From positions 1-35,183 of the IMG/VR virus record IMGVR_UViG_3300034374_010865: a DNA stretch of 35,183 nt; one strand, 5' to 3'. A model generated the notes under the pieces. The model was given only the letters and a program-made list of their open reading frames with translations. It searched no databases and was not told where the DNA came from. The position numbers and the translations under genes are program-made. The stretch is from a virus. Shown one piece after another: positions 6,665 to 35,183 of the stretch (within the stretch, counting starts at the first letter, position 1; each line of letters starts with the position of its first letter).

Positions 6665-6676
6665 AAAATAAAACTC

Positions 6677-7405: not shown

Positions 7406-7419
7406 AAAAAACTTAAATT

Positions 7420-7629: not shown

Positions 7630-7652
7630 AATTTTAATAAAAAATTAATTAA

Positions 7653-7681
7653 ATCAGGACCAAAAGTCCTGATTTTTTTTT
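7653..7681 (+). terminator. Rho-independent terminator
   Basis: The arms ATCAGGAC and GTCCTGAT enclose a CAAAA loop and are followed by nine T (7673-7681). It ends the protease/DUF4494 transcript before the scaffold gene. Confidence 0.9.
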
Positions 7682-7721
7682 GCCACAATATTAATAAATT
7701 AACTTTTTTTACAAAACAGAA

Positions 7722-7728
7722 TATTTAT
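7722..7728 (+). promoter_or_regulatory. TATTTAT motif, candidate promoter for scaffold and capsid genes
   Basis: Context CAGAATATTTATTAAGTAAAA, 39 bases before the scaffold ATG and just after a terminator, so a promoter is needed here. TTAACT with a 17-base spacer lies upstream (7699-7704). No separate motif precedes the capsid gene, so this one probably drives both. Confidence 0.5.
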
Positions 7729-7760
7729 TAAGTAAAATAAACATTTGCGCAAACAAAAAA

Positions 7761-9095: not shown

Positions 9096-9119
9096 AACAA
9101 AACTTAAAAAAATACTAAA

Positions 9120-10952
9120 ATGGGAGCATTATTAGAATCAGGTCTTGTTGGTAACATCGGTCTTAAGCACTTGAAAGTTATCAAAGAAGACACAATCAAC
9201 AAATGGGACAAATTAGGATTCTTAGAGGGTCTTAAAGGTCACGTTAAAGAAAACATGGCTCAGTTGTATGAAAACCAAGCTTCACACTTAATCAACGAAG
9301 CTGCATCAACTGACAATTCAGGTTCATTCGAAACTGTTGTTTTCCCAATCGTTAGAAGAGTTTTCTCTAAATTATTGGCAAACGACATCGTTTCTGTACA
9401 AGCTATGAACTTACCTATCGGTAAATTGTTCTACTTCGTACCTAAAATTCAGGGTTATGATACAGCTACTGTATATGACAATCCTCACTACGCACCTTTC
9501 GGGGCACCAAATGCAAGTGCATCACAAACTCCAGAATCAGGTTACTCTACAGGTAAAAACTTGTATGACCGTTTCTACGAGGGTGACGAACCAACTTTGG
9601 ACCCTCCAGGATTATTCGACTATTCAAAAGGAGCTTATACTTCTGTAACTTCTAACGCAGTAACTCAAGTATGGTCTAATGGCGAATTAGTTGAAGGTGT
9701 ATACACTACTATTAATGGTGGTACTACAGCTGGTGCTACTACAGGTGGTCCAATCCACAGAAAAGCTATCATTGCATTGTCAGGTTTCTCAAGTGCAGGA
9801 CAAGGTAAACTTATCGGTCCTGATGGAAACGAACAAGATACGGAAACTTTCTTATCTGACTTACAAGTTAAGGCTGTACAAACTACAGGTGCATTCTCAG
9901 GTTTGGGTACATCTGCACTTATCTTCAGAGTTGTTACTCAGAAATATGGTAAGGGTATTGTTCAGTACGGTACTAACACACAGGCTTCATGGCCTGGTTC
10001 AGGTAACGGTGGTTACTACGATAACATCTGTGATGCTAATGGTATCATTTACTTAGAAGTTGACTGTCAAGTTCCTGCATCTATTGGTGCAGCATCTCTT
10101 GATGGATATTCAGGTATAACTTTACCTTCAAATGCGGCACCAGCTGCAGGACAGTTCACATGTACTTATAGAATCTATAAGAACTTGGAATTCGAAGATG
10201 AGATTGGTGAAGTTTCATTTGACTTAGAGTCAGTAACTGTTTCTGTTACAGAAAGAAAGTTGAGAGCTCAATGGTCACCTGAATTAGCACAAGACGTTTC
10301 TGCTTTCCACAACATCGACGCTGAAGCTGAATTGACAGCTTTATTGTCTGAGCAAGTGGCGGCTGAAATCGACCGTGAAATCTTAAGAGACTTGAGAAAA
10401 GGTGCAGCTTGGACATTACGTTGGGACTACAACGGATGGAAGAGAGGAACTGCAGCTAATCCATTAACTCAATACACTCAGAAAGACTGGAACCAAACAT
10501 TAATCACAGCTATCAACCAAATCTCTGCTCAGATTCACAAATCTACATTGAGAGGTGGTGCTAACTGGATTGTTGTTTCTTCTGAAATCTCTGCAATCTT
10601 TGATGACTTGGAGTACTTCCACGTTTCAAATGCATCTCCAGACCAAGACCAGTACAACATGGGTATCGAGAGAGTTGGTACTTTGGCAGGTAGATATCAG
10701 GTTTACCGTGACCCATACTTCCCACCTAACACAGTATTGTTAGGACACAAAGGTAACTCTTTGTTGGATACAGGTTACGTTTACGCACCATATGTACCTC
10801 TTCAGTTGACTCCAACTATGTACAACCCATTCAACTTTACACCTATCAAGGGTATCATGACAAGATACGCTAAGAAAATGGTTAACAACCGTTTCTATGG
10901 TAGAATCATTGTTGATGGTGTTAGAACATTCGACTTGAGAGAATTGAGATAA
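9120..10952 (+). CDS. Major capsid protein, T4 gp23-like
   Basis: The main shell protein, 610 residues against 521 in T4. The N-terminal part has a basic/helical propeptide, then SFETVVFPIVRRVFSKLLAN and VSVQAMNLPIGKLFYF, both gp23 hallmarks. The C-terminal part has AAEIDREILRDL, LRGGANWIVVSSEISAI and the end FYGRIIVDGVRTFDLRELR. A protease site of the T4 type (Leu/Ile-x-Glu) occurs at IN-E60/A61, close to the T4 cleavage at E65. The extra length is mostly a Gly/Thr/Ser-rich insertion at about 155-330, probably a surface domain. The codons favour AAC, ATC, TTC, TAC and GAC far more than neighbouring genes, as expected for the most expressed gene. The leader is ACTTAAAAAAATACTAAA, without a Shine-Dalgarno sequence. 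Confidence 0.96.
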   Translation: MGALLESGLVGNIGLKHLKVIKEDTINKWDKLGFLEGLKGHVKENMAQLYENQASHLINEAASTDNSGSFETVVFPIVRRVFSKLLANDIVSVQAMNLPIGKLFYFVPKIQGYDTATVYDNPHYAPFGAPNASASQTPESGYSTGKNLYDRFYEGDEPTLDPPGLFDYSKGAYTSVTSNAVTQVWSNGELVEGVYTTINGGTTAGATTGGPIHRKAIIALSGFSSAGQGKLIGPDGNEQDTETFLSDLQVKAVQTTGAFSGLGTSALIFRVVTQKYGKGIVQYGTNTQASWPGSGNGGYYDNICDANGIIYLEVDCQVPASIGAASLDGYSGITLPSNAAPAAGQFTCTYRIYKNLEFEDEIGEVSFDLESVTVSVTERKLRAQWSPELAQDVSAFHNIDAEAELTALLSEQVAAEIDREILRDLRKGAAWTLRWDYNGWKRGTAANPLTQYTQKDWNQTLITAINQISAQIHKSTLRGGANWIVVSSEISAIFDDLEYFHVSNASPDQDQYNMGIERVGTLAGRYQVYRDPYFPPNTVLLGHKGNSLLDTGYVYAPYVPLQLTPTMYNPFNFTPIKGIMTRYAKKMVNNRFYGRIIVDGVRTFDLRELR

Positions 10953-11022: not shown

Positions 11023-11853
11023 TTAAACAACCGCAAGTTGTTCTTCTTTCATTAATTCATATGCTCTAGCTAAACGAGTCATACCGATTCCACCTCCAAA
11101 ACGAGGGAAGAAATTAAACGATAAGAATTCTTCCAATTCTTTTTCAACTCTTTCTTTACCAAACAGTTCAAACAACTTGGCGGAATAACCACCATTTTCG
11201 ATTGTATAAAACATTTCTCTCATTTCTTCAACATTAGAGGAACGTTCTGCCGAACCTATAGTTTCTTGACCATATAGAATAACATCTACTTTATTAAAGA
11301 TACCATCTCCTTTGTGTTTCATATTCCAAAAAGGGTTTGTTCTTAATGGAAAGTGTTGTAATGAAACAACCGAACCTTTTTCGTCCCACATTCTTTGTTC
11401 GTGTTCATTCTCTAAAATTCTCACACCACCATATTCTTCACATACATCATTATAGTCAACTTCTACAGGTTCATCAAAACCTAACCATTCTAATAATTCA
11501 GACTCAAGTTTTAACATTTCTTCGATTCCACCTTTTGATTCAAATTCAAACATAGGGAAGATAAGTTCGTGCCTACCTGGTATTGGTTCTTTCTCTTCTC
11601 TGTAAGATGTTGAAACACAGAATACACCTTCCCACTCAGGGTTTTTAAGTAATTCATACTCCAACCACATTTGACCTGTTTGTGGTAATGGCCAAATTTC
11701 ACCTGAGTATTCAAAGGTTTTTACAGAGTGTGGATTTTCACACGCAGCCAAAATTGATAATCTACTTTGTGTAGGAACTTCTTTGAAGTTTTTGTTTAAG
11801 AAGAATTCTCTCATCTTCTGTACTAATTCATTGTACGTTTTTGTGTTTTTCAT
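11023..11853 (-). CDS. AsnRS-like class II synthetase core without anticodon domain (possible asparagine synthetase)
   Basis: The 276 residues form a class II catalytic core. Motif 2 is TSYREEKEPIPGRHE (R85, E87), with the following MFEFE strand. VDVILYGQETIGSAERSSN matches the ATP/amino-acid segment that reads EIIGGSQRE in AsnRS/AspRS. Motif 3 is GGGIGMTRL (R260). True AsnRS proteins are 430 residues or more with an N-terminal OB-fold that binds the anticodon; that domain is absent, and the protein opens directly with the catalytic domain. Archaeal asparagine synthetases related to AsnRS have this same short form, so it may make asparagine from aspartate, or adenylate another acceptor. It is transcribed alone, between two terminators, away from the head genes. 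The leader is A-rich. Confidence 0.82.
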   Translation of the reverse strand: MKNTKTYNELVQKMREFFLNKNFKEVPTQSRLSILAACENPHSVKTFEYSGEIWPLPQTGQMWLEYELLKNPEWEGVFCVSTSYREEKEPIPGRHELIFPMFEFESKGGIEEMLKLESELLEWLGFDEPVEVDYNDVCEEYGGVRILENEHEQRMWDEKGSVVSLQHFPLRTNPFWNMKHKGDGIFNKVDVILYGQETIGSAERSSNVEEMREMFYTIENGGYSAKLFELFGKERVEKELEEFLSFNFFPRFGGGIGMTRLARAYELMKEEQLAVV

Positions 11854-23477: not shown

Positions 23478-24078
23478 TTTTTAATTTTAATTCTGCATAT
23501 AAATCTTTTAAGTCCTCAAGATTTTCTATTGTATAATCCGATTTAATACCTTCATTGTATGATGTTTTATATTTTATTTTAATTAGATTGGGATTTTCAA
23601 ACATCAATAAATCGGGATTTGATGTAATGATTAAATCATAATTTGATATAACATCCTCTAATGTTATTTTAGAATAAAAAATAATTTTTTCAACCAAAGA
23701 ACCATATTTTGATAAAAAAAATAAAGTTGCGGGTTTTGATTTTTGTATTTCATCAGAAATTATGGAGATATCGTGATTATCTCTTAAATCTTCATAAATC
23801 TCATTCATTACATTAAATGAATTCGGTTTAACTGATGGAGCATGTCCAAAAATATTCATAGGAAAATCAACATAAAGAAAATCATATAAACTTTCTTTAT
23901 TTGGAAATACAAAATGGTCCAAAAGATTTAAGGATGTGACAGGTAAATTTAATTTATATTCAAAATCTTCTTCACCTTCTTCTTTAATATAATCATCAAT
24001 AAAAAACTTTTGGTATACTTCTTCAGCTTTACCTAAAGTATTTCTTAAAACACCATTTACATCTACCGCAATTTTCAT
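23467..24078 (-). CDS. HAD-like protein with altered catalytic motif
   Basis: 203 residues resembling HAD-superfamily hydrolases such as 5'-nucleotidases. Motif I reads AVDVNGVLRNT (residues 4-14): the nucleophile Asp6 is kept, but the second Asp (acid/base) of DxD is Asn8. Motif II is HDISIISDEIQKSKP with Ser, and a later Lys region is KSKPATLFFLSKYGS. The end SNPDLLMFENPN looks like motif IV. The Asn substitution may weaken phosphatase activity, so binding or a different chemistry is possible. It overlaps the PhoH gene by four bases upstream and the 88-residue gene by 11 downstream. Confidence 0.72.
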   Translation of the reverse strand: MKIAVDVNGVLRNTLGKAEEVYQKFFIDDYIKEEGEEDFEYKLNLPVTSLNLLDHFVFPNKESLYDFLYVDFPMNIFGHAPSVKPNSFNVMNEIYEDLRDNHDISIISDEIQKSKPATLFFLSKYGSLVEKIIFYSKITLEDVISNYDLIITSNPDLLMFENPNLIKIKYKTSYNEGIKSDYTIENLEDLKDLYAELKLKSDD

Positions 24079-24800
24079 TCTTCGTATCTATCTAAAATTT
24101 TTGTAATTAATGGGTTTCTAATAATATCATTTGATTTAAATTCAAATACACCAATATTATCAATTTCTTTAAACCTTTCCATAGCATCCCATAGACCTGA
24201 TTGAGTTTTATCTTTATATCTGTCTGTTTGTTCTAAGTCTCCTGAGATAAAAAATTTAGAATTAAAACCAATACGGGTTAGTAATAATTTCATTTGTTTT
24301 GGTGTACAGTTTTGAGCTTCTTCAAAAATTAATATTGAGTTATCTATGTTCATACCTCTCATATATGCTAATGCGAAAACTTCAATAATGTCAGTATTCT
24401 TAAGTTTTTCTCTTGATTCTTTACCTATAATTTTGTTTAACAAGTAATAAGATGGAAAAATATACGGGTCTAATTTTTCTTCAACATTACCCGGTAATGC
24501 CCCTAATTTTTCTTCAGCCTCAACTGCCGGTCTGACGATTATTATTTTTTCATAAGAATTATTTGGGTCAATTAATAATTGAACTGCGGCACTCATTGCA
24601 ATATATGATTTACCAACACCTGCAGGACCCGTACATATTGTTATTTCATTATTCTCTAAAGTATTGTAATATTCTTTTTGAGATTCAGTTAAAAATTTTT
24701 TTCTTGGAGTTTTTTTAATTAATGAGTTAATAAAGTCTTTAGTTGTCATTTTTGGTGGAATACTATTGTTAGCTTCACCATTTGTTTTGCGTACTGCCAT
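24075..24800 (-). CDS. phoH: PhoH-like ATPase
   Basis: 241 residues. After a 35-residue tail the ATPase shows Walker A TGPAGVGKSY (57-66), the PhoH pattern IIIVRPAVEAEEKLGALPGN, Walker B ILIFEEAQNCTP and sensor FISGDLEQTD. PhoH-like proteins are common in T4-like phages of marine and gut bacteria; they are helicase- or ribonuclease-linked ATPases whose phage role is unclear. It is placed between the HAD-like gene and the GDP-mannose dehydratase gene, thus at the boundary between sugar enzymes and other functions. It is full length for the short phage type. Confidence 0.92.
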   Translation of the reverse strand: MAVRKTNGEANNSIPPKMTTKDFINSLIKKTPRKKFLTESQKEYYNTLENNEITICTGPAGVGKSYIAMSAAVQLLIDPNNSYEKIIIVRPAVEAEEKLGALPGNVEEKLDPYIFPSYYLLNKIIGKESREKLKNTDIIEVFALAYMRGMNIDNSILIFEEAQNCTPKQMKLLLTRIGFNSKFFISGDLEQTDRYKDKTQSGLWDAMERFKEIDNIGVFEFKSNDIIRNPLITKILDRYEE

Positions 24801-24825: not shown

Positions 24826-25797
24826 TTATAATTTATAAAAATTTAACCAATAATCAATCATTTCATCCATCATAGTCTCAAAAGTGTATTTTGGCGACCA
24901 TCCGGTTTGTGTTCTTAATTTTGTCGAATCTCCCTTTAAATCATTAAGTTCTTCAGGTCTTAAGAATTTTTCATCTTGTTTTACATAATCCCGATAATCT
25001 AAACCTAATTTATTAAAAGTATATTCACATAAATCTCTTACTGTATGTGAAATACCTGTTGCACATACATAATCATTTGGACTATCTAACTGAAGTATCA
25101 TCCACATTGCTTCTACATAATCCTTAGCATGACCCCAATCTCTAGTTGCGTCTAAGTTTCCTAATTTTAATACATTTGATAGTCCTAATTTTATTTTAAC
25201 GGCTTCTTTAGCAACTTTGTTTGTTACAAAGTTTGTACCTCTTCGTGGAGATTCGTGATTAAAAAGAATTCCATTAGAAACAAATAGGTTATACGAATTT
25301 CTGTAATTTCTACAAATGTTATAACTAAACACTTTTGCACATCCGTATGGGGACACTGGGTTCATTGGGGTCGTTTCTCTTTGGAAACCGTCCTCATCTA
25401 TTGAGTTACCAAACATTTCAGATGAGGATGCCTGATATACTTTACTATCTGGTTTAATCATTCTTACAGCCTCTAACAAATTTAACGACCCTAATCCTGT
25501 TACGTTTGAGGTGTAAATTGGTTGGTCAAATGAGATTCTTACATGTGATTGAGCAGCTAAATTATATATTTCATCAGGCATTACTTTTTGTAAAACAGAT
25601 ATAAGCGATGATAAATCTGTCATATCTGCATAATGCAAAATAATTTTGTCAAATATTCCGTCTAATCTTGCAGTTTGATTTTCTGCTACAGAATTTCTTT
25701 TTAATGTACCATGTACTTCATATCCTTTATCTAACAAGAACTCGGCCAAGTATGAACCATCTTGTCCGTTAATTCCTGTAATTAACGCTTTTTTCAT
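24826..25797 (-). CDS. gmd: GDP-mannose 4,6-dehydratase
   Basis: The 323-residue SDR enzyme converts GDP-D-mannose to GDP-4-keto-6-deoxy-D-mannose, the precursor of GDP-fucose, colitose, perosamine and rhamnose. The NADP-binding GINGQDGSYLAE (8-19) is the Gmd form of the Rossmann loop. Catalytic residues are visible: S124-S126 with E127 (QASSSEMFG) and Y151/K155 (SPYGCAK). The signature NGILFNHESPRRGTNFVT and the LGNLDATRDWGHAKDYVEAM loop are diagnostic. It lies two bases downstream of the ColD-like gene, and PhoH follows after 25 bases. Phage-encoded Gmd is known; here it is in one cassette with the two following pathway steps. Confidence 0.95.
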   Translation of the reverse strand: MKKALITGINGQDGSYLAEFLLDKGYEVHGTLKRNSVAENQTARLDGIFDKIILHYADMTDLSSLISVLQKVMPDEIYNLAAQSHVRISFDQPIYTSNVTGLGSLNLLEAVRMIKPDSKVYQASSSEMFGNSIDEDGFQRETTPMNPVSPYGCAKVFSYNICRNYRNSYNLFVSNGILFNHESPRRGTNFVTNKVAKEAVKIKLGLSNVLKLGNLDATRDWGHAKDYVEAMWMILQLDSPNDYVCATGISHTVRDLCEYTFNKLGLDYRDYVKQDEKFLRPEELNDLKGDSTKLRTQTGWSPKYTFETMMDEMIDYWLNFYKL

Positions 25798-25798
25798 A

Positions 25799-26953
25799 TT
25801 AAGAATGTTTGTTAATTATATCTGTTATTTTTTGTATATCGGTTTCCGTTAGGTCTTGATGATTTGGTACGTAAAAACCATAATCATCTAATAATTGACA
25901 ATTTTCTAATTCAACTCTACCGTATTTTAAATACCACATTGGTTTATTTGCCATATTACCTGCAATTAATGGTCTAACTTCAATGTTATTATTAATAAGC
26001 TCTTCAACAATCTTATTTCTATTTTTGTTAAGAATAGGTATTGCAAAACTTGATATAAAATCAGTATTTCTTGTATCTAATTGTAATTGATTAGATTTTA
26101 AATTTGACTTGTAAAATAAAAAGTTTTTATTTCTTATTTTACTATAGTTGTCTAATTTTTCTATAGCCCTTAATCCAATAAATGCTTGTAAATCTGTAGA
26201 ACGTAAGTTCATACCTGGTACGTAAAAATTATATAGAGAATCAAAATCTGAAGATTTATATTTGTTTCTTAATTCTTCTTGTGTTTTTCTTGGTAAATCC
26301 CTGTCCCAACCATGACTTCTCATCATTAATAATAAGTGATAAAATTCTTCATCATTTGTATTAATAAACCCTCCCTCTATTGTTGATAAGTGATGTCCAA
26401 AATACATGGAATAAAAAGACGCCAAACCAAATGAACCTAAATATTTACCATTAAATTTAGAACCCATACTTTCACAAACATCTTCTAATAATATTACATC
26501 ATAGTCATTACAAAGTTTTAGTACCTTGTCCATTTCTGGTACCAATCCCAAAGGTGATACCAATATTAAAACTGATGGATTTTCTTTTTTAAATAACTCT
26601 TCTAAATGATTTAAGTCACAAGACAAATCATCTAAATTACAATCACATAAAAAAGTCTCATACCCTAATAACATTGGACTACTTACATCGGTAGCCCAAC
26701 TCAAACCTGGTACAATTATTTTATTATTTTTTAATTTATTTGAATGTAAAAGGGCTGCTAATGTTAATAATATTGACGATGAACCCGAGTTTACAAAAAC
26801 GGAATACTTTGTACCCATTTTCTTTGCCCATTTTTCTTCAAGCTCAATAGTTAACTCACCTTTTGTTAATCTAGGAATCTCATCTTGAGATAACCATTCT
26901 ATTAAATGATTTATATCATTTTTATCGATTGTATCGCTGACTAATTTTATCAT
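25799..26953 (-). CDS. ColD-like PMP-dependent sugar 3-dehydratase (DegT/DnrJ/EryC1 family)
   Basis: 384 residues, fold-type I DegT family. The PLP-pocket Asp is present (LLEDVCESMG, D158). At the place of the PLP-binding Lys (six residues before the E of EGG) stands His187 in MYFGHHLSTIEGG. That substitution marks the ColD/E1 branch, which uses unbound PMP to remove a 3-hydroxyl instead of transferring an amino group. With Gmd next door its natural substrate would be GDP-4-keto-6-deoxymannose, leading to GDP-colitose. It is not a perosamine synthase, which needs Lys. The first 32 bases overlap the Fcl-like gene upstream. The RSHGWDRDL segment recalls related dehydratases of capsule clusters. 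Confidence 0.88.
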   Translation of the reverse strand: MIKLVSDTIDKNDINHLIEWLSQDEIPRLTKGELTIELEEKWAKKMGTKYSVFVNSGSSSILLTLAALLHSNKLKNNKIIVPGLSWATDVSSPMLLGYETFLCDCNLDDLSCDLNHLEELFKKENPSVLILVSPLGLVPEMDKVLKLCNDYDVILLEDVCESMGSKFNGKYLGSFGLASFYSMYFGHHLSTIEGGFINTNDEEFYHLLLMMRSHGWDRDLPRKTQEELRNKYKSSDFDSLYNFYVPGMNLRSTDLQAFIGLRAIEKLDNYSKIRNKNFLFYKSNLKSNQLQLDTRNTDFISSFAIPILNKNRNKIVEELINNNIEVRPLIAGNMANKPMWYLKYGRVELENCQLLDDYGFYVPNHQDLTETDIQKITDIINKHS

Positions 26954-27830
26954 AAACTTTTTTTATACCTTTATTAAAAGGTAATGGTTTAAAATTTATA
27001 AGTAAATCTTTTAATTTTTGAATTGATACATCTTTCCTATATTGACCATCAGGCTTAGTAATGTCAAAATTTAGTTTAATGTGATTTAAATTTAATTCGT
27101 TTAGTGATATCTCAGCCATTTGTCTTATTGATAAATTTTCTTCGGTAGCAACATTGAAACTTTCGTAGATTTCTTTTGTTAAACATTCATTAATTACCCA
27201 AGCCAAATCATCTGAATGCATGAATTGTCTTAATGGGTTACCGGTCCCAAATAAATTTATTTCATTTTTTTCATTAACAACTGCGTTGTGTATTTTTTCT
27301 AAAAGTGCAGAAACAAAATGACTGTTGTGACCTACTTTGTCATTTTCACCATACAAATTACATGGAGTTAAATATTGATATTTTGTACCGTATTGTTTGT
27401 TTAATGCATCTATTTGTACCGCCAAACATCTTTTTGCGTATCCATATGAAAAATTTGTAATCGTTGGTGGACCTAAATGTAAATCTTCTTCAGACATAGG
27501 ATATGTATCAACTTTATCGGGATAGATACAAGTAGATAAAATTCCAATAAATTGTTCTACATTATTTTTAAAAGAATGTTCGACCATCAATGTATTCATT
27601 TGAACATTATCAACAAAATATTGATATGGTCTTTCAATATTATCTATAATACCACCAACTCTAGCGGCTAAGTGTACGACCTTTTTTGGTTTATATGTTT
27701 TAAACATTTTGATTACGTCTTCTTCTTTTGTTAAATCGTAATCTTTAGATGAAATGTATATGGCATCGGGTAATAATTTTTTTAAAGATTGTCCAACCAT
27801 TCCTGAACCTCCGGTTACTAAAATTTTCAT
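26922..27830 (-). CDS. GDP-fucose synthase or GDP-colitose synthase (Fcl/ColC-like)
   Basis: 302 residues from the ATG at 27830. An ATG eight codons upstream (27854) would overlap the previous gene and puts residues before the Rossmann start, so KILVTGGSGMVGQ is taken as the N-terminus. The SDR epimerase-reductase has catalytic Ser99, Cys101 (STCIYP), Tyr129/Lys133 (YGYAK), ARVGGI and a His in NSHFVSALL, matching Fcl residues Ser107, Cys109, Tyr136, Lys140 and His179. The Cys/His pair indicates C5 (and, in Fcl, C3) epimerisation. ColC acts on the ColD product and is homologous, so which name fits depends on the neighbour. RQFMHSDDLAWVI and KPDGQYRK are also family signatures. Confidence 0.9.
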   Translation of the reverse strand: MKILVTGGSGMVGQSLKKLLPDAIYISSKDYDLTKEEDVIKMFKTYKPKKVVHLAARVGGIIDNIERPYQYFVDNVQMNTLMVEHSFKNNVEQFIGILSTCIYPDKVDTYPMSEEDLHLGPPTITNFSYGYAKRCLAVQIDALNKQYGTKYQYLTPCNLYGENDKVGHNSHFVSALLEKIHNAVVNEKNEINLFGTGNPLRQFMHSDDLAWVINECLTKEIYESFNVATEENLSIRQMAEISLNELNLNHIKLNFDITKPDGQYRKDVSIQKLKDLLINFKPLPFNKGIKKVYDKISQRYNR

Positions 27831-27840
27831 TTTGTTTAAT

Positions 27841-28716
27841 TTATAAAAAAGCATTTATTTGTTCTGTAATTTCTTCAAAAGTATTGTCCTCTACCCAATT
27901 TTTTTTAAATAAAATTTTTGTAGTTTCTTTAGGTAACCAATTAACAATGTCCATTTTATGTCTACAACTTGTCATATTGGTTAAAACCATATTCTTTTTT
28001 AATCCTGCGGCCATTGGCCAAATACCACTATCCGTAGATACAAAAACTTTACAGGTCGACAAACAATATAAATCATCCATCATGTTTCTATCCTCATATT
28101 GTGCAAAATCTATAATGTTTTCATGTACAGGTAAGGGAGTTTGTTTTGAATCACCAAGTCTAATAACTTTGTAACCTAAATTAGCATAATAAAGTGAAAT
28201 TTTAAAAAAAGTATCAATATTTATAAATCTTTTATTTTCAAAATTTGCACCATCAATTCGTTTATCAAAAGTTCCTTTTTCTCTAAACTGAATTACAATT
28301 GCGTTTTTTGGTAAGTTATGTTTATTTTGGTATGTTTCATGAGGAAATTCAAGAGAGGCTTCAGGTGTGTGTTTTAAATCTGACCACATTGCTGGATATT
28401 TTAATCCGTTATAGGCGTATGGTTCAGGCATATAAACATCCTTGTACTCATCAAGTGAAAAAAAATTATTTTTTAAAATTGTACCAACATTACTAATATT
28501 AATATTATTAAAAATCTCTTTTGGTATTAGTTTTATATCCTGCTCTTTTACATTTTTAATACATAAGGCAAAATACTTTTGAAATTCGTTTTCAACATAA
28601 ATCTTAGGTTTTACATCTGGATTTAAATGTAAGAATTTAGATAGTCCAACAGTATGTTCTGCTGAATTACCTAAAGCATTTTCATGTCTCCATATTGCAA
28701 ATTTTAATTCTCCCAT
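27841..28716 (-). CDS. TIGR04372-like putative glycosyltransferase
   Basis: 291 residues. The C-terminal half has the pattern of the TIGR04372 family of putative glycosyltransferases: IVIQFREKGTFDKR, then GYKVIRLGDSKQTPL, NIIDFAQYEDRNMMDDLYCL, CKVFVSTDSGIWPMAAGL and VLTNMTS. The donor and acceptor are not known. The fold is GT-B-like. Its start overlaps the HAD gene upstream by 13 bases, and 10 bases separate its end from the Fcl-like gene. This type is often placed in surface polysaccharide clusters, consistent with the setting. Confidence 0.75.
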   Translation of the reverse strand: MGELKFAIWRHENALGNSAEHTVGLSKFLHLNPDVKPKIYVENEFQKYFALCIKNVKEQDIKLIPKEIFNNINISNVGTILKNNFFSLDEYKDVYMPEPYAYNGLKYPAMWSDLKHTPEASLEFPHETYQNKHNLPKNAIVIQFREKGTFDKRIDGANFENKRFINIDTFFKISLYYANLGYKVIRLGDSKQTPLPVHENIIDFAQYEDRNMMDDLYCLSTCKVFVSTDSGIWPMAAGLKKNMVLTNMTSCRHKMDIVNWLPKETTKILFKKNWVEDNTFEEITEQINAFL

Positions 28717-29345
28717 CCTAAATATTTTTTTATATTTTGTGGTGTGTGATTAATTTTGTTTTTAACTAAAGCGTCAATGTATTTATCAATCGCCAATACT
28801 AACATGGGTCTTTTTTCTTTAAAAAGGTATTCTGATTTTTTTCGTAATTCCACTAATCTTTCATCATCTTTACACATGGCCATTTCGTCCTCTAAGTACC
28901 AATATCGGATGTGTACAATACATAATTTATCAATTAATTCGGAAAATGTATCTGTGTGGATATTATCATAATTTGGGAATTTATTGTCTTTAAGTATTGA
29001 GTCTACAAAGTTACTTATTTTATCATCTATTATTTCACCGGCAGTTAAATCGTCAAAAAATGATTTATCCGAATTTGCCTTATCATCAATTAATTTATCG
29101 TAGTGTAATTTTTTACCAACTCTTAGTTCATGATATTTTACACCCCACGAGTCTAATTGATTTTTTGTTACATCATACCAATCTATTTTTGTTTGAGCAC
29201 CTCTAGCTGTATCAATAATAATAGTATTACCATCGTCATATAGTTTATTTACAATGTTAATACGTTCAATTATTGGTTCTGCTTTATCATACTCACTTTT
29301 TGTTAGTGTGCATAAAGTACCGTCTAAATCAAAGCAATATATCAT
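28704..29345 (-). CDS. HAD phosphatase fused to a helical C-terminal domain
   Basis: 213 residues. The first 95 hold a compact HAD phosphatase of the capsule type: DLDGTLCTLT (nucleophile D6, D8), TARG (motif II), and KLHYDKLIDDKAN (Lys and DD). After a linker the C-terminal half (about 115-205) is helical, with IDKLCIVHIRYWYLEDEMAM and RLVELRKKSEYLFKEKRPML. This recalls the DUF4254-type helical domain seen in glycan clusters, but I cannot confirm it. The phosphatase would remove a phosphate from the NeuB-type 9-phosphate or another sugar phosphate. Its start overlaps the NeuB gene by 17 bases. Confidence 0.8.
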   Translation of the reverse strand: MIYCFDLDGTLCTLTKSEYDKAEPIIERINIVNKLYDDGNTIIIDTARGAQTKIDWYDVTKNQLDSWGVKYHELRVGKKLHYDKLIDDKANSDKSFFDDLTAGEIIDDKISNFVDSILKDNKFPNYDNIHTDTFSELIDKLCIVHIRYWYLEDEMAMCKDDERLVELRKKSEYLFKEKRPMLVLAIDKYIDALVKNKINHTPQNIKKYLGWEN

Positions 29346-30162
29346 TTGTCTTTCTTAGTTTTTTGATGATAGGTAATTCACTATCATAAACTACCTTAAT
29401 GCCATCACCTAAAACATTTTCCATTTTTCTTATACCTTCAACTAATTCCTCAACATTCTCAATAGAGGCAGATTGGTCAGAGCCATACATAGTTCTATCT
29501 AAAGTAATGTGAAATTCAATACATTCTGCTCCAAGAGAAACTGCACCAAACATAGGAACTAAACCACTATGGTGATTTGAAAATCCAATTTTGTATTGTG
29601 GATATTTTTGAGATAGTGTTGTGATATATCTTAAATTCATTTCTTCTTCTTTTGTTGGGTAAGTACTTGTACAAGCCAAAACATATTCAACATTATTTAA
29701 AATATTTAATGCTGCTTCAATTTCCTCTTCATTTGACATACCTGTTGAAACAATTATAGGTTTACCTGTAGCATTCAATTTTTCTAAAAATGATTTATCG
29801 GTTAATAGTGCCGATGCAATTTTATGGTATTTTACGTTTAGATTAGATTCAACTAAGTCTAAACTAACTTCATCCCAACAAGAAACAATAAAATCAATAC
29901 CAATTTCATTACAATAATTTTCAATTTCTTTATATTGTTCAATTGAAAATTCAATACCTTCTTTTTGTTCCCTAAATGTAGTGCCCCAGGGGGATTCTCT
30001 GTGTGATGATAATTCTTCAGGTGTATAGACAGAGTCAATATCTCTTTTTTGAAATTTAACTGCGTTACAACCAGATTCTTTAGATTTTTTTATCAATTCT
30101 TTGGCTATATTCATATCACCATTATGATTGATTCCGATTTCTGAAATAATGTAAGTGCTCAT
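29329..30162 (-). CDS. neuB: NeuB-type nonulosonate synthase without SAF domain
   Basis: 277 residues. The enzyme condenses a sugar with phosphoenolpyruvate to a 3-deoxy-ulosonic acid. The TIM barrel is complete: SEIGINHNGD, SGCNAVKFQKRD, HKIASALLTD, IVSTGMS, CTSTYPT, GFSNHHSGL and EFHITLDRTMYGSDQSASIE. The common form reads EKHFTLD and GxDHxAS; here it is EFHITLD and GSDQSAS, a recognised subtype. The C-terminal SAF (antifreeze-like) domain of NeuB/SpsE (about 70 residues) is missing, so the protein stops after the barrel. SAF normally completes the active site of the partner subunit, so a different substrate is possible. It lies in a cassette with isomerase, SDR and cytidylyltransferase. 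Confidence 0.9.
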   Translation of the reverse strand: MSTYIISEIGINHNGDMNIAKELIKKSKESGCNAVKFQKRDIDSVYTPEELSSHRESPWGTTFREQKEGIEFSIEQYKEIENYCNEIGIDFIVSCWDEVSLDLVESNLNVKYHKIASALLTDKSFLEKLNATGKPIIVSTGMSNEEEIEAALNILNNVEYVLACTSTYPTKEEEMNLRYITTLSQKYPQYKIGFSNHHSGLVPMFGAVSLGAECIEFHITLDRTMYGSDQSASIENVEELVEGIRKMENVLGDGIKVVYDSELPIIKKLRKTNDILL

Positions 30163-30167
30163 AATTT

Positions 30168-30740
30168 TTATTTTTTAAACATTTTATTTTCTACAATTTC
30201 TAATACTGTGTGTCCAATTAACATGTGACATTCTTGAATTCTTGCCGTATCTTCTGATGGGATTACTATCGATATATCAGACATGTCTTTCATTAATCCT
30301 CCATCTCTACCAAGAAATGAAACAACAAACGCGTCAGGATTAGATTCAATTAATTTTATTATATTTTTAGATTTTCCTGATGTAGATAAACATATTACCA
30401 CATCACCTTTTTTAAATGATGATTTAAACTCTCTTGAAAATATTTCTTCATAAGAATAGTCATTAGCCACTGCAGTAAGATATGATAAATTAGAACCTAA
30501 TAATACTACTTCTAATGGTTCTCTATCAAAATAAAATCTACCATTTAGTTCTGCCGATAAATGTTGTGAGTCTGCAAAACTACCACCATTACCACAGAAA
30601 TAAATCTTATTTCCATTTTTATATGTTTCAATAATAATATTACTAATTTCATATATTTTATTGATAATATTCTCATCATTCAACAATGATGTTTTTAATC
30701 TGATTGACTCAGATATGTTGTTTTTAATTGTTTCTACCAT
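30168..30740 (-). CDS. gmhA: SIS-domain isomerase, GmhA-like
   Basis: 190 residues, the length of sedoheptulose-7-phosphate isomerase. Hallmarks: CGNGGSFADSQHLSAEL (49-65), GRFYFDREPL, VANDYSYEEIFSRE, CLSTSGKSKNI (phosphate-binding), and DTARIQECHMLIGH with the metal/catalytic Glu and His. The enzyme should interconvert a ketose and an aldose phosphate. No heptose kinase or adenylyltransferase (HldE type) is visible, so it may feed the NeuB branch instead of ADP-heptose. It overlaps the SDR gene by seven bases. Confidence 0.88.
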   Translation of the reverse strand: MVETIKNNISESIRLKTSLLNDENIINKIYEISNIIIETYKNGNKIYFCGNGGSFADSQHLSAELNGRFYFDREPLEVVLLGSNLSYLTAVANDYSYEEIFSREFKSSFKKGDVVICLSTSGKSKNIIKLIESNPDAFVVSFLGRDGGLMKDMSDISIVIPSEDTARIQECHMLIGHTVLEIVENKMFKK

Positions 30741-31552
30741 ACTGTTTTTCCTCCATCAATTATTAAATTAGTACCTGTCATATAGCTACTTGCATCAGAA
30801 CACATAAAGACAATAGCCCCCTTATATTCGTCAATGTGTGCCATTCTCCCCATCGGAATAATGTTAGATAATTTTTGTACAAATTCATCTGGGTGGTCAT
30901 TATATACACCAGTTGGACTTAGACAGTTTACTCTTATGTTATCTTTGGCAAAATATGTTGCCAAATATTTTGTCATACCAATAACTGCCCATTTTGCTGC
31001 TGAATATGTTATTGGTTTTACGTTTTGTAAGTTTTTAGGTTTGGTCGGGTCTTCATAAATTCTTTGGTCAGGTGCTATAACACCCAAATCTGAAGATATA
31101 TTTAAAATAACTCCACCACCTGTCTTTAACATTTTATTTGATATGCATTGTGATACTAAGAATGTGCCGTTAATTATTGCATCAATACCTTCAGAAAAAT
31201 AGTCAAAAGTCATTTCTTCAAACCTACTATCGGGTGTAAGACTTTTATCATCTTTTGTAACCTTTGGGTCTTTTGCTGCGTTATTAATTAAAATATCAAT
31301 TTTTGGAAATTTAGATATTACATCATTTATTGATTTTTTATCGACAACATCCATGTATTGGTAAAAAACTTTTTCCTTACCAAACTTTTCACTTAAATAA
31401 TTAAACTTTTTTATAAGTGAATTTAAATCTACATCGGTTAATATTACAGATGCACCAAATTCTAATAAAGCTTCAGCATGTTTAGGTCCAAGTAACCCAC
31501 CGGCTCCTGTAACCAACGCAACTTTATCCGTTAAATCAAAATAATTTACCAT
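30734..31552 (-). CDS. Short-chain dehydrogenase/reductase
   Basis: 272 residues of classical SDR type. Cofactor loop VTGAGGLLGPKHAEAL (TGxxxGxG), NNAAKDP (NNAG variant), catalytic Ser in ILNISSDLGV, YSAAK (Tyr and Lys), and the IRVNCLSPTGV end. It is most similar in build to PtmA-type oxidoreductases found in flagellin nonulosonate clusters, but the similarity is by recall. It would oxidise or reduce a sugar intermediate. It is located between the TIM-barrel gene and the GmhA-like gene, two bases after the former. Confidence 0.88.
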   Translation of the reverse strand: MVNYFDLTDKVALVTGAGGLLGPKHAEALLEFGASVILTDVDLNSLIKKFNYLSEKFGKEKVFYQYMDVVDKKSINDVISKFPKIDILINNAAKDPKVTKDDKSLTPDSRFEEMTFDYFSEGIDAIINGTFLVSQCISNKMLKTGGGVILNISSDLGVIAPDQRIYEDPTKPKNLQNVKPITYSAAKWAVIGMTKYLATYFAKDNIRVNCLSPTGVYNDHPDEFVQKLSNIIPMGRMAHIDEYKGAIVFMCSDASSYMTGTNLIIDGGKTVW

Positions 31553-31553
31553 A

Positions 31554-32330
31554 TTAAAATGTAATGTTTTTTTTAATCAAATTAAAGTGTTTATTAATAT
31601 ATTCATATTCATTTCCTGATATTTCTCTACATAATTGTAATATAAAGTTACCGTCATAATTAATTTTATTAAGGGATTTAAATATTGTGTTAAAATCAGT
31701 GTCTCCACTACCATATGGTACTGTAACAGAATCAAAAGTTCTATCTTTTATATGGACATTTAATATTCTATTTTTTAAATAAAATATATTTTTTTCATGG
31801 TTTACCTCTTCACCATAAAAAGAAGTCACATTACCGGTATCGTATGTAACATACACATTATCACCTAATTCAAATAATTCTGAAATTGTCTCGACATCAC
31901 ACTCAAACTCAAAACAAAAGTTAATGTTAGGGTAGTCAGTTATGAATTTCTTTATATTTTGTTTAAATTTATTTCTTATTTCAGGTTCTATAATTGAACT
32001 ATCTTCTAATAGTGGGATGACAATGTTTTTAACTTTTTGTGTTCCCATTCTATCTAAAGTAGGTTTTAAATTATCCAACAGATAGTCAAAATCTACTATA
32101 TTCTTAGATATTATATTATCAACACAAACTGATAATATATTAGATGAGCTTAAGTCATATAAAAAGAAAGGATTGTTTAAATAATTTTTTTCGGTTATAA
32201 TCCATTCAATCCCATCTAATCCCATTGTTATTAAATCAAATAATTCCTCTCTCCAATAATGAATTGGAAATTCCTGTATTTGACCATCTATCGGCTCAGA
32301 GAGACGACCTTGTAAAACACCTATTTTCAT
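31554..32330 (-). CDS. Xylose isomerase-like TIM-barrel sugar isomerase/epimerase
   Basis: 258 residues with the pattern of the AP-endonuclease-2/sugar isomerase TIM barrel: MKIGVLQGRLSEP, WREELFDLITMGLDGIEWI, a metal-binding Glu in INFCFEFECD, then VYVTYDTGNVTSF, ILNVHIKDR (His for metal) and PYGSGDTDF. Proteins of this kind accompany nonulosonate and capsule clusters and probably epimerise a sugar or sugar phosphate. Its start overlaps the fusion gene by four bases (ATGA type). Confidence 0.82.
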   Translation of the reverse strand: MKIGVLQGRLSEPIDGQIQEFPIHYWREELFDLITMGLDGIEWIITEKNYLNNPFFLYDLSSSNILSVCVDNIISKNIVDFDYLLDNLKPTLDRMGTQKVKNIVIPLLEDSSIIEPEIRNKFKQNIKKFITDYPNINFCFEFECDVETISELFELGDNVYVTYDTGNVTSFYGEEVNHEKNIFYLKNRILNVHIKDRTFDSVTVPYGSGDTDFNTIFKSLNKINYDGNFILQLCREISGNEYEYINKHFNLIKKNITF

Positions 32331-33964
32331 TTTTTAAAATTGTATGGTGTTGAAACCTTTGAATCGATAATAAATTCATTGTTAAAATCTTTAATCTGTT
32401 GTTCGATGTCTACACCAACATTATCACTCCATTTGTCTAGTAATCTCTTAGTTATTGGACCCATTTTACCATCACCAAAATCTATATAATTTACAGATTT
32501 CACTGGTAAGATACAAAATGGTGTGGCAGTCATAAAAGACTCATCGGATGTGTAAGCATCATATAAAGTAAGGTTCTTTTCAACACAAGGAATTCCTAAT
32601 TCATCACATAACTCAAAAATATAATCTCTTGAGATTCCTCTTAAAATATTTCTACCTTCAGGTGTATATACAACACCATCTTTAACAAAGAATACATTAT
32701 CACCACTACCTTCGGCAATAAAACCATCCTCATCTAATAAAAGAGCCCAATTGTTTTCTCCTTTAAATTGTGAAGCCTCAATGTTAGCCATCTGATAGTG
32801 GAGTCTACTTCTATTTTTAATTTTAGGGTCTAATAAATGATTTGGTATTGCTTTTTGATTAGTTACTACAGCATTTATACCTTCATCAAATAATTTACCC
32901 ATTCCACTGACTGTCCACTTTAATGGAAAATCTGCAACAATTACTGTGGCGCCAACTTTATCAAACAAATGTGAATATAAACCTAATGGTCCTCTTGAAA
33001 TATTAATAACAAGTCTGTGTTCATCAGTAGGTAAAAATAAAGGTTCATTAATTTCAATTACTTTGTTACAGATATCAATAAGTTCTTCTTTTGTATATTG
33101 TAATGGAATTCTTAAGATTTTAACACCATTTAATAATCTATCAATATGTTCTTCTAATTTAAATTGTTTTTTATTAAATGACCTTGTCATTTCAAAAACC
33201 ATATCACCAAACATTAATGCTGAATCGTAAATTGAAATTTTAGCGTCCATTTCATTTACGTAATCTCCATTCATAAAAACTTTTCTACCTGTAGATAAAA
33301 AATGTTTTTTATAAAGATAAGAACAAAAATCTAAATCTTCGTAATTATCAATTTCAAACATTTTCCAACTTTCCTGTGTGACCGTACCAATCTTACCAAA
33401 CAATCTATTTTTATTTTCTATAAAACCATTTTTGTTGAAGATATACATTGAACCGTTTTCAACAATCTGTGGATTGTGGTCCTGTCTTCTTTTTCTATTT
33501 AAAAAATCGTAATTTAAACTTTTTAATAAATCATCTTTTTTTTCCCACATTAAAAAATCTTCCAATTCACATGATGAGAACATTGAGTCATAATTGTTAT
33601 TAACATAGTCATTTATCATCCTGTCTATGTCTGATGTCTCTCTTAGAGGTGATGTTACCTGTAAAAATACGATAGTATCAAAATCTTGACTGATATTCTC
33701 AATGGAGTGTAAAATTGCGTCTTCACTTGATGCAAAATCTCCCGATATCCCTTCAGGTCTTTTAATTGGTGTTGCTCCATAATCAGAAGATATGTTTAAT
33801 ATTTCATCACTATCTGAAGTAACAAATACTTCACTTATCAAGTTTGAGTTTTTTGCATTTAAGATGGTATGTGAAATAAGTGGTTTACCACAAAATTCAA
33901 TTATATTTTTATTTGGTATTCCCTTACTACCACCTCTGGCGGGTATTATACAAGCTATTTTCAT
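32327..33964 (-). CDS. Fused cytidylyltransferase (NeuA-like) and class IV aminotransferase
   Basis: 545 residues. Residues 1-220 are a CMP-sugar synthetase: CIIPARGGSKGIPNKN (5-20), VFVTSDSDEI, LQVTSPLRE (101-109), NGSMYIFNK. Residues 227-510 are a BCAT/D-amino acid transaminase fold (class IV): FMNGDYVNEMDAKISIYD, FEEHIDRL-type helix, PLP Lys383 in KIKNRSRLHYQMANIEA (13 residues before the EA pair, as in the family), GFIAEGSGDNVFFV and LRGISRDYIFELCDELGI. A final tail of about 35 residues follows. No stop, frameshift or internal start suggests two genes. The fusion would link amination of a sugar or cosubstrate to CMP activation in one protein. Unusual: sugar aminotransferases are normally DegT type. 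Confidence 0.9.
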   Translation of the reverse strand: MKIACIIPARGGSKGIPNKNIIEFCGKPLISHTILNAKNSNLISEVFVTSDSDEILNISSDYGATPIKRPEGISGDFASSEDAILHSIENISQDFDTIVFLQVTSPLRETSDIDRMINDYVNNNYDSMFSSCELEDFLMWEKKDDLLKSLNYDFLNRKRRQDHNPQIVENGSMYIFNKNGFIENKNRLFGKIGTVTQESWKMFEIDNYEDLDFCSYLYKKHFLSTGRKVFMNGDYVNEMDAKISIYDSALMFGDMVFEMTRSFNKKQFKLEEHIDRLLNGVKILRIPLQYTKEELIDICNKVIEINEPLFLPTDEHRLVINISRGPLGLYSHLFDKVGATVIVADFPLKWTVSGMGKLFDEGINAVVTNQKAIPNHLLDPKIKNRSRLHYQMANIEASQFKGENNWALLLDEDGFIAEGSGDNVFFVKDGVVYTPEGRNILRGISRDYIFELCDELGIPCVEKNLTLYDAYTSDESFMTATPFCILPVKSVNYIDFGDGKMGPITKRLLDKWSDNVGVDIEQQIKDFNNEFIIDSKVSTPYNFKK

Positions 33965-34686
33965 AATATATTTGGTATTGTTGTTAACGTATCTTTTAAA
34001 TGACTAATTTCACTTAAATTATAAATTTTTGTACCTATGTTATTAGCACTATCATTAATAATTCTAAAATCGTTTAAGATATTTTTTAAATAAGGATTAA
34101 ATGTGTCTCTATTAGTTGTAACACCATCAACATATCCTTTAGTGTAATCTAAATCACATCCTGCAATGTATATTGTTGAAAATCCCATTAGTACTGCCAT
34201 TGCTAACATGTGTGTTGCAACAGTATCGGAGGGGCTATACCTTTCATTATGTTTTGTATATGATTGTAAATGTTCCTGAATTGTTAATCTATCCGAAATT
34301 AAATTTCTACATCCTTGAGGACAATAACCACATTCTTTACCATCAAAGTGTCTTTGGTCATATCCATAAAAATCTCTATTCATAATACCCTCAACATGAT
34401 TTCTGGGTGTTGGGTCAACTGAATCTGCATAAATAATATCAATAGAATTTAAATTATTAATTCTTTGAATCATTCTTGGTATTGAGTTTGGTGACGAATT
34501 AGCCATCATCCAATAATTTGGTTCAATATCAGTCATTAAATCAAAATCATTTGTTGAAATTGTGATAGCTTTTTTACTTTTTATATACTCTAAATGAGAT
34601 TTTAATGATGGTCCCAGTGCTGCTACAAAACCAATTTCACCTTTGTGTTTATTAATTAAATTTGATATGTCTCTGTAGTTACCCAT
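33961..34686 (-). CDS. DUF115/MAF-like protein, possible nonulosonate transferase
   Basis: 241 residues. The Rossmann-like build VAALGPSLKSHLEYI (21-35), ITISTNDFDL, DTVATHMLAMAVLMGFS (154-170) and IYIAGCDLDYTKG is that of the DUF115 / MAF group, and it recalls the sialyltransferase family GT42, with which those share GPSL and an (A)xxLG-x-(Y)-G-D element. MAF proteins transfer nonulosonates to flagellin. Here a three-Cys cluster CGYCPQGC (C119, C122, C126) interrupts the middle and may bind a metal. It overlaps the fusion gene by four bases, directly upstream of the NeuA domain, so use of its CMP-sugar is plausible. Confidence 0.72.
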   Translation of the reverse strand: MGNYRDISNLINKHKGEIGFVAALGPSLKSHLEYIKSKKAITISTNDFDLMTDIEPNYWMMANSSPNSIPRMIQRINNLNSIDIIYADSVDPTPRNHVEGIMNRDFYGYDQRHFDGKECGYCPQGCRNLISDRLTIQEHLQSYTKHNERYSPSDTVATHMLAMAVLMGFSTIYIAGCDLDYTKGYVDGVTTNRDTFNPYLKNILNDFRIINDSANNIGTKIYNLSEISHLKDTLTTIPNIL

Positions 34687-34692: not shown

Positions 34693-35183
34693 TTAAATTA
34701 TCACCCATTCTTTACAATATAAATCATCTGTGGGTAAATGTGAATTCTTTGGTCCAAACCAATTTTTTGGTATTATTACTTTTTTGTTTGGATTTTCATT
34801 TAACCATGAGCCCCACCATGAAAATGTAGAGTTACATATGATATTGTTCTTACAGAATGACATAAGATATAGGTCTTCAAAATCAGTTGAATCCTCAATG
34901 AATATTTTATCTTTTATAAAATCAAAATTTTGTTTACACCAATCCATATCGTCAGAAAAAATTAAATATTTTTTTTCTTCTCCCATTTTTTGGTATGCGT
35001 TTTTGTAATAATTAATGTCTTGTACGTAATGAAAATCACTTAATCTAATGTAATCACCTCTTCTTACATGTATTGAGCATGTATCCTCACTTAATACTTT
35101 TGAATATTTTTCTTGAAGTTTTTTATTTGTTTGTTCGTCAATTTTGAATAACTCAAGAATTTCATTCCTATAGTTTTTAAAAT
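34693..35183 (-). CDS. Alpha-1,2-fucosyltransferase-like GT11, 5' end cut by window edge
   Basis: The reading frame runs to the right edge; an internal Met at 34986 is not the start, because the codons before it encode SIHVRRGDYIRLSDFHYVQD, the GT11/GT-B fucosyltransferase motif I (HxRRGDY). The remaining 163 residues include YLIFSDDMDWCK, the second family motif, and NSTFSWWGSWLN, the third, then VIIPKNWF. Family 11 enzymes transfer L-fucose from GDP-fucose, or a related GDP-6-deoxysugar, to a galactose. The missing N-terminal part is estimated at about 120 residues. It stands first in the visible transcript, six bases before the DUF115 gene. Confidence 0.9.
   Translation of the reverse strand, partial: FKNYRNEILELFKIDEQTNKKLQEKYSKVLSEDTCSIHVRRGDYIRLSDFHYVQDINYYKNAYQKMGEEKKYLIFSDDMDWCKQNFDFIKDKIFIEDSTDFEDLYLMSFCKNNIICNSTFSWWGSWLNENPNKKVIIPKNWFGPKNSHLPTDDLYCKEWVII

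Follow-up and report, generated by a model that had tools for sequence, protein, structure and literature searches.

The virus record IMGVR_UViG_3300034374_010865 of IMG/VR, analysed here over its whole 35,183 nt (the window, to whose numbering all coordinates refer unless another locus is named), carries a multi-gene operon for what is probably a sialic-acid-like ulosonate sugar, and this operon belongs to a broad family of modular gene sets. The gene row is phage-borne: terminase, portal, head protease and major head protein, genes of the T4 head and packaging type, are encoded within 805-10952. The terminase shares 31% identity with those of the Flavobacterium phages 'immuto', 30% with that of a 484-kb phage known from uncultured material and about 25% with those of cyanophages, matches that do not settle the host. 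The operon is packed on the minus strand, on which all window genes located below also lie, and runs from 34686 down to at least 24826 with junctions between -32 and +5 nt. Its reading order is a MAF-like protein, a NeuA-type cytidylyltransferase fused to a class IV aminotransferase, a TIM barrel, a short-chain dehydrogenase/reductase (SDR), a GmhA-like SIS isomerase and a short NeuB, followed by a HAD protein with a DUF4254-like domain, a TIGR04372 glycosyltransferase, and Fcl-like, ColD-like and GMD enzymes. The contig end falls just upstream of the row, and the contig is a fragment. Another contig (L003) encodes the same cassette, every protein between MAF and GMD, both included, being 100% identical, and may come from the same virus.

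The initial annotation had described a sugar cassette in a row at 29329-34686. Its six genes from MAF to NeuB are confirmed, with tight junctions of -4, -4, +1, -7 and +5 nt in reading order; the HAD gene, which it had set between TIM barrel and NeuA, instead follows NeuB at 28704-29345, outside that range, the two genes overlapping by 17 nt. The synthase (29329-30162, 277 aa; PF03102, 1.8e-65) has no SAF domain (PF08666) by Pfam, a library that does detect SAF in the NeuB proteins of two Bacteroidota rows introduced below (L113 and L114), and its TIGR03569 match reaches only position 278 of 329. It keeps the residues invariant in a 17-sequence alignment that includes its own sequence, among them H197 and H218. 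Directly upstream, the GmhA-like isomerase (30168-30740) scores 165.7 bits against TIGR00441, below the cut-off of 209, and has GmhA 2xbl as its best solved relative (8.8e-42); it retains H60, E64, Q169 and H177, which we take to be the catalytic and zinc positions of GmhA, and H60, E64 and H177 are invariant in six sequences. The SDR (30734-31552; PF13561, 2.7e-37) is PtmA-like, contains YSAAK as its YxxxK motif, and matches both PRK09186 (169 bits against a cut-off of 255) and FlagModPtmA (112 against 350) below threshold.

The TIM barrel (31554-32330) is a xylose-isomerase-like protein (AP_endonuc_2, PF01261, 1.8e-10) of the ketose 3-epimerase type. Its structural model, with a predicted local distance difference test score (pLDDT) of 76.9, lies nearest to ketose 3-epimerases, with the L-xylulose-5-phosphate 3-epimerase UlaE (3cqi) at Z 23.8 and, by Foldseek, 3cqj at 1.4e-12; E143, D164, H193 and E241, presumably with metal roles, are invariant in six sequences including the window's. 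The fusion protein (32327-33964, 545 aa) joins a NeuA-type domain (residues ~1-222; PF02348, 1.5e-25), which is PseF-like (TIGR03584, 119 bits, cut-off 205.7), to a pyridoxal phosphate (PLP) aminotransferase domain of class IV (~229-515; PF01063, 9.6e-47). The latter aligns with class IV aminotransferases of solved structure across the region of its lysine, which we take to be the PLP-binding residue, and scores best against branched-chain aminotransferases. In the HAD protein, a capless HAD-like phosphatase (~1-106) is fused to the DUF4254-like domain; its match to TIGR01689 (EcbF-BcbF, 0.00025) lies far below the cut-off, that to phrog_1238, labelled 'phosphoheptose isomerase' in PHROGs, reaches 4.5e-24, and the DUF4254-like half is weak (PF14063, 18.4 bits, cut-off 27). 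These two halves are separate genes in two other viral loci, L004 (at 1854) and L005 (8790-9146).

At the upstream end of the row lies the MAF/MptE-like transferase (33961-34686, 241 aa), with a Maf/GT42 sialyltransferase fold (PF01973 MptE-like, 1.2e-11; CST-I, 0.0037, below cut-off). With its AlphaFold2 model (pLDDT 80.8), VIA-align, whose lists cover families within the first 1000 Foldseek matches, gave Maf 5mu5 as best (Z 16.6 over 203 residues, root-mean-square deviation 3.6), then CstII 1ro8 (14.2), an archaeal HPPK 8sd5 (13.4), SteA (10.3-10.7) and human sialyltransferases (8.5-9.9), the next rows standing at 4.6 and lower; the top Foldseek match was a Pasteurella sialyltransferase (E 7e-6, TM 0.47-0.50). 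Since the archaeal HPPK also scores 13.4, the Maf/CstII fold is not proof of transferase activity or of the use of a cytidine monophosphate (CMP)-ulosonate.

The row is not unique to the window phage, a possibility we rejected upon finding similar modular sets in other environmental phages. In an IMG/VR profile search with the short NeuB (profile A1), 594 of 600 stretches among the matches listed encode a NeuB relative, and 80 were kept; filtering of the viral loci led from 142 to 134 with a short NeuB and to 89 at 97% NeuB identity. Co-occurrence was counted in the 76 loci fetched by NeuB only, non-redundant at 97% NeuB identity and including the window's own lineage (L017), while the sets of 89 loci and 46 NeuA-aminotransferase pairs used below include loci fetched through class IV aminotransferase and TIM queries, and their class frequencies are not natural. 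Open reading frames (ORFs) and their starts come from mechanical calling and the classes from BLAST to a small panel, and where a contig end cuts a locus an absence is scored. NeuB ORFs measure 271-292 aa in 70 of the 76 loci, and 38 of the 76 have an aminotransferase within 6 kb (class III in 16, class IV in 13, DegT in 8, class IV together with DegT in 1). An SDR is present in 26/38 loci with an aminotransferase and 1/38 without (Fisher 7e-10), and a TIM barrel in 19/38 and 1/38 (2.5e-6), p values that are inflated because the loci are related. Of the 20 loci with a TIM barrel, 19 have an SDR and 19 an aminotransferase. All three classes keep this company, with an SDR in 10/16 class III, 8/14 class IV and 9/9 DegT loci, the one locus with both classes counting under each, and a TIM barrel in 9/16, 7/14 and 4/9; SIS genes occur in 6, 1 and 0. 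A MAF gene is found in 9/38 loci with and 3/38 without an aminotransferase (p 0.11).

Position and phylogeny tie the aminotransferase to NeuA. Within the 89-locus set, NeuA lies directly upstream of the aminotransferase, with a gap of up to 900 nt, in 46 of 49 aminotransferase loci; a methyltransferase is interposed in L009, L167 and L190 (gaps 523-620 nt), and the gap in L133 is 332 nt. Among these 46 pairs only the window's is fused, and 36 of the other 45 overlap, as judged from mechanical starts. On the NeuA tree of the 46 rows, aminotransferase class switches 5 times (minimum 2; shuffled mean 20.7, with none of 200 shuffles as low), against 15 times on the NeuB tree; in the 30 loci with an SDR, the changes number 3 on the NeuA, 9 on the SDR and 11 on the NeuB tree. 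The window and its relatives L009 and L010 illustrate the pattern: identity to the window is 76% and 77% for NeuB, 78% and 80% for the SDR and 50% and 49% for the TIM barrel, and NeuA falls from 58% in L009 to 31% in L010, where class IV gives way to class III. Class III and DegT aminotransferases share one fold type and class IV has another. A VOC-family protein accompanies class III in 16/16 loci, class IV in 0/14, and occurs in 6/38 loci without an aminotransferase. The fusion and this class-specific gene argue for a functional NeuA-aminotransferase unit, although adjacency can explain part of the pattern, and the tie to NeuA would place amination beside CMP activation, after NeuB.

Other genes recur in the viral loci. 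The VOC/glyoxalase-family proteins are about 140 aa long, e.g. L150 6424-6837, L209 12565-12999 and L213 10555-10977 (supported by Pfam for L150 only). Short cupins resembling type II mannose-6-phosphate isomerases occur in 29/76 loci, e.g. L176 13117-13485 and L190 8590-8940, with domain support limited to Cupin_2 in Pfam for L190 and no NCBIfam match for L176; as a supply of mannose-6-phosphate they show no link with the aminotransferase (16/38 with, 13/38 without), and with GMD only p 0.06. Radical SAM genes were seen in 26/89 loci, among them two in L024 (5125-6513 and 7133-7930), one with a B12-binding domain, and a second, more distant NeuB-like gene in 9/89, e.g. L028, L214 and L166, the second copy of L214 being 46% like the window's NeuB.

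Bacterial relatives were sought in 395 Bacteroidota genomes; a scan of genome contigs gave one weak NeuA match. The A1 profile matched 141 of the 395 at E ≤ 1e-75, and 139 of 147 matched places score 2.1e-119 or better with the other 8 between 9.7e-88 and 2.9e-76, a gap of about 30 orders of magnitude that sets the short NeuB apart as a class distinct from the long synthases. A class III aminotransferase stands in the row at 18 of 40 fetched Bacteroidota places, 11 of these 18 with a transketolase; the fullest form, seen for example in L082, L078 and L097, starts with NeuA and a split transketolase and continues with the class III enzyme, an SDR, a KdsC-like HAD and the short NeuB. An uncharacterised NeuB-SDR-aminotransferase row is thus common in the Bacteroidota loci examined. 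Its class III enzymes are 21-27% identical to that of the phage locus L010. In L082 a fatty-acid hydroxylase follows NeuB, and the HAD protein is KdsC-like, its top matches including KdsC and the Bacteroides phosphatase 3e81, which we take to be BT1713. The TIM profile matched only two of the 395 genomes at E ≤ 1e-20, and both hold a fuller row: L113 encodes a NeuB-SAF-TIM fusion, SIS, a methyltransferase, NeuA, a class III aminotransferase, TIM and two SDRs, and L114 a NeuB-SAF-TIM fusion, SIS, NeuA, DegT, TIM, Gfo/Idh and an SDR. In both, the gene directly upstream of NeuB encodes an HddA-like kinase (239 and 257 bits against a cut-off of 600); in L114 an HddC-like gene comes next (145 bits against 300; HddC was looked for in L114 only). 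A class IV profile gave nothing at E ≤ 1e-60 in the 395 genomes, a search that had no positive control. Partial rows also occur on a Methylomagnum plasmid (transketolase, class III, SDR, NeuB, HAD) and on an Azospirillum plasmid (SDR, TIM, NeuB and HAD beside legionaminate genes), and in a Rhizobium legionaminate locus NeuA is followed by a PtmA-like SDR (39% identity). The initial annotation had held that the same row in bacteria with a known product would overturn its proposal of a new sugar; similar rows do exist, and no known product was found for the Bacteroidota, Methylomagnum or Azospirillum rows, so that these rows do not overturn the proposal.

We tentatively read the row, at a confidence just short of even, as a phage-encoded route to a CMP-activated amino-ulosonic acid following Kdn/Kdo logic (Kdn, 2-keto-3-deoxynonulosonic acid; Kdo, 3-deoxy-manno-octulosonic acid), each step being assigned from the enzyme family. 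The GmhA-like isomerase would supply an aldose phosphate, which the SAF-less NeuB would join with phosphoenolpyruvate into a 3-deoxy-2-ulosonate phosphate, and the HAD enzyme would remove the phosphate. The PtmA-like SDR would then oxidise one hydroxyl, the 3-epimerase-type TIM barrel would invert the carbon adjoining the new ketone, and the class IV aminotransferase would convert the ketone to an amine, whereupon the NeuA domain of the same polypeptide would activate the product with CMP and the MAF/CstII-fold protein would transfer it. Oxidation by the SDR, epimerisation by the TIM barrel and transamination would form a coherent trio. Enzyme families thus support the functions that the initial annotation had listed for an activated nonulosonate-like sugar, namely condensation, isomerisation, redox, phosphate removal, activation and transfer.

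Several observations weigh against this late-amination route. SIS is found in only 9/76 viral loci within 6 kb (7/38 with and 2/38 without an aminotransferase, p 0.15), and the single class IV locus that has it (1/14) is L017, probably the window's own lineage; its rarity in aminotransferase loci implies that the SIS isomerase step is not general. HAD genes are not specific to aminotransferase loci either (24/38 with, 16/38 without, p 0.11). The NeuB tree has 14 changes in aminotransferase presence, and in a tree-aware test over 8 independent pairs on starred branches the SDR varies the same way in 4.2, the opposite way in 0.1 and shows no difference in 3.7 (median p 0.125), with corresponding values of 2.2, 0.2 and 5.6 for the TIM barrel (median p 0.5); the aminotransferase-SDR link is therefore consistent in direction but not significant once descent is allowed for. 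Joint transfer of neighbouring genes alone could explain the co-swapping of NeuA and aminotransferase, and the NeuA, NeuB and SDR trees are quick ones with three long branches, shuffled for the NeuA tree only. The usual substrates of class IV enzymes are 2-keto acids. The available part of a paper on Plesiomonas flagella (PMC4481668) has its authors placing PtmA early in legionaminate synthesis, in the GDP-GlcNAc half, which lowers our confidence in late amination and raises that in an early one.

In such an early amination, which we consider unlikely though far from negligible, the SDR and aminotransferase would act on a hexose or heptose phosphate or a nucleotide sugar before NeuB, which would then condense an amino-sugar phosphate, by the logic of kanosamine NtdC-NtdA-NtdB. 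The co-occurrence of SDR, TIM barrel and aminotransferase in viral loci suits this order as well, the presence of GmhA-like and HAD enzymes points to intermediates that carry phosphate, and a related PtmA is set early by those authors; the aminotransferase, however, tracks NeuA rather than NeuB by position, fusion and tree, and NeuB lacks the SAF domain, an arginine of which contacts the N-acetyl group. The best scores of the aminotransferase domain, against branched-chain enzymes, would suit a plain Kdn- or Kdo-like acid, in which the aminotransferase would make an amino acid used elsewhere, for example as an N-acyl group, and leave the ulosonate untouched, as would the 38 of 76 short-NeuB viral loci without an aminotransferase within 6 kb. 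We nevertheless hold this to be improbable, given that three aminotransferase families fill the same slot next to NeuA and that SDR and TIM barrel accompany them. An incomplete route to legionaminic acid (Leg), pseudaminic acid (Pse) or N-acetylneuraminic acid (Neu5Ac), with the host supplying the rest, would account for the PtmA-like SDR, paired with NeuA in the Rhizobium legionaminate locus, and for the PseF-like score of NeuA. Neither a NeuC/PseG-type hydrolase or epimerase nor a Leg/Pse aminotransferase was found in the window ORFs scanned, where a lost part or a host enzyme is possible; acetyltransferases, which the initial annotation had called missing, indeed have no Pfam match among the 25 window ORFs, on a contig that ends just upstream of the row. 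Together with the wide separation of its NeuB class from the long synthases, this makes a host-completed pathway very unlikely.

As regards the substrate, the GmhA-like isomerase could give NeuB a heptose-7-phosphate, so that an aminated, CMP-activated 3-deoxy-dec-2-ulosonic acid of ten carbons would result. This reading arises because the GmhA-like enzyme adjoins NeuB (in the window SIS precedes NeuB by 5 nt; in L113 and L114 it follows NeuB and overlaps it) and because an HddA-like heptose-phosphate kinase lies upstream in those two Bacteroidota rows; we rate it as quite improbable owing to the scarcity of SIS in the viral loci. If true, phages would be making a sialic-acid-like sugar of a new class, out of modules that can be interchanged and that draw on three aminotransferase families.

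The product probably either decorates a phage protein or enters a host surface glycan, and the sequence gives no choice between the virion coat and the host-surface remodelling that the initial annotation had offered as alternatives. Neither PF01943 (flippase) nor PF02397 (initiating transferase), the only two export or initiation families tested, has a match in 16 viral records including the window's, all linear and possibly fragments; the same searches found the families in 13/14 and 9/14 positive-control genomes. Their absence suggests that the sugar may go onto protein in the cytoplasm, as with Maf, or divert host glycan assembly, as with Epa. If the amino-ulosonate reading is right, environmental phages carry modular routes to such acids, swapping the NeuA-aminotransferase unit like a cartridge while the rest is kept; new sialic-acid-like sugars could then be sought by a route open to testing, and phages would have one possible means of changing the surface of virion or host.

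Downstream of HAD, the operon holds a second module, predicted to make a GDP-colitose-like sugar from GMD, ColD-like and Fcl/ColC-like enzymes, with GT11. The GDP-mannose 4,6-dehydratase GMD (24826-25797) matches PF16363 (8.1e-119) and TIGR01472 (400.9 bits, 14 under the equivalog cut-off of 415). The adjoining DegT-family gene (25799-26953) corrects the initial statement that DegT is missing, but it encodes a ColD-like GDP-4-keto-6-deoxymannose 3-dehydratase (phmmer best the E. coli ColD entry 2gms, 1.3e-62; ColD 3gr9, 2.8e-61), in which GHH aligns with SHH and a His occupies the PLP-lysine position of aminotransferases, presumably the mark of ColD-type dehydratases. GMD together with a ColD whose His replaces the PLP lysine is a combination expected of the GDP-colitose pathway, and the operon has both. 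We rejected the DegT gene as the aminating enzyme of the NeuB row on the strength of this alignment, and no aminating DegT was seen for that row. The Fcl/ColC-like SDR, a GDP-sugar epimerase-reductase (26922-27854), scored as Fcl-like below the cut-off (NF047922, 198 bits, cut-off 500) in a comparison that had no ColC model, and is followed at 27841-28716 by the TIGR04372 glycosyltransferase (82 bits, cut-off 45). The GT11 glycosyltransferase (34693-35181; PF01531, 1.1e-28), upstream of MAF, is cut by the contig end; L003, which reaches further upstream, has it as a longer, 260-aa ORF (98%) with three more ORFs, one of them cut. A PhoH-like gene (24075-24800, minus strand) comes directly after GMD, as in several relatives. 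Elsewhere, a 276-aa protein resembling class II aminoacyl-tRNA synthetases (11023-11853, minus strand) adjoins the major head gene and matches PF00152 (1.8e-12), phrog_29758 (8e-100) and PRK05159 (25 bits).

As far as we know these pathways, the gene set appears to fit none of those for Neu5Ac, Leg, Pse, Kdn or Kdo, in keeping with the initial annotation, which had set it apart from all of these but Kdn, and we found no description of this row in the open-licence literature searched. In the available portions of two papers, the 'cytidylyltransferase' of a cyanophage is likened to the glycerol-3-phosphate type, with its function unclear (PMC9146016), and NeuA is not named (PMC13079714). A standard Leg, Pse or Neu5Ac pathway was rejected: NeuB has no SAF domain, GMD is of the GDP-mannose type and the DegT protein is ColD-like, so that this contig, a fragment, does not show the Leg/Pse pairing of a nucleoside diphosphate-sugar 4,6-dehydratase with a DegT enzyme on a GlcNAc derivative. 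The row shares with the legionaminate (Ptm/Leg) pathway a PtmA-like SDR, NeuB, NeuA and a Maf-type transferase, but LegB, LegC, LegG and an acetyltransferase were not found in the window. In Shewanella, KdnA and KdnB make 8-amino-8-deoxy-Kdo (Kdo8N) by late oxidation and transamination of the ulosonic acid before CMP activation, using an iron-type alcohol dehydrogenase and a DegT-type enzyme where the window has an SDR and class IV.

To our knowledge, the Kdn pathway has no aminotransferase, SDR or TIM barrel. The HAD proteins differ as well, being EcbF-like (weakly) in the window and related to phrog_1238, and of the KdsC/BT1713 type in L082 but not in the window. Kdn synthase uses mannose-6-phosphate, according to the available part of a study of the Prymnesium enzyme, which makes the same statement for BT1714 of B. 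thetaiotaomicron by reference (PMC6200933), and to judge from that part the row resembles the Bacteroides thetaiotaomicron pathway in its NeuB-type synthase, phosphatase and CMP transferase. The rows of L113 and L114 share with the window NeuB, a GmhA-like SIS, NeuA directly upstream of the aminotransferase, TIM and SDR, and differ in the NeuB-SAF-TIM fusion, the class III or DegT aminotransferase and the HddA-like kinase upstream. From what the accessible text of PMC12053666 describes, EpaA-EpaB of Acinetobacter baumannii prophages, which convert capsular Pse to 8-epi-Pse as shown by nuclear magnetic resonance, are the closest tested precedent: a phage-encoded system, with a cytidylyltransferase in fused form, that modifies an ulosonate at a late stage and so remodels the host capsule. 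EpaA is there a fusion of CTP_transf_3 with an aldo-keto reductase and EpaB an SDR, a two-gene set that epimerises host-made Pse without a NeuB, SIS or TIM of its own. On that account the window differs in having a PF01063 aminotransferase rather than an aldo-keto reductase as fusion partner, and shares with EpaA-EpaB a phage-encoded cytidylyltransferase fused to a sugar-modifying enzyme, a separate adh_short_C2 SDR and an ulosonic acid as the probable target.

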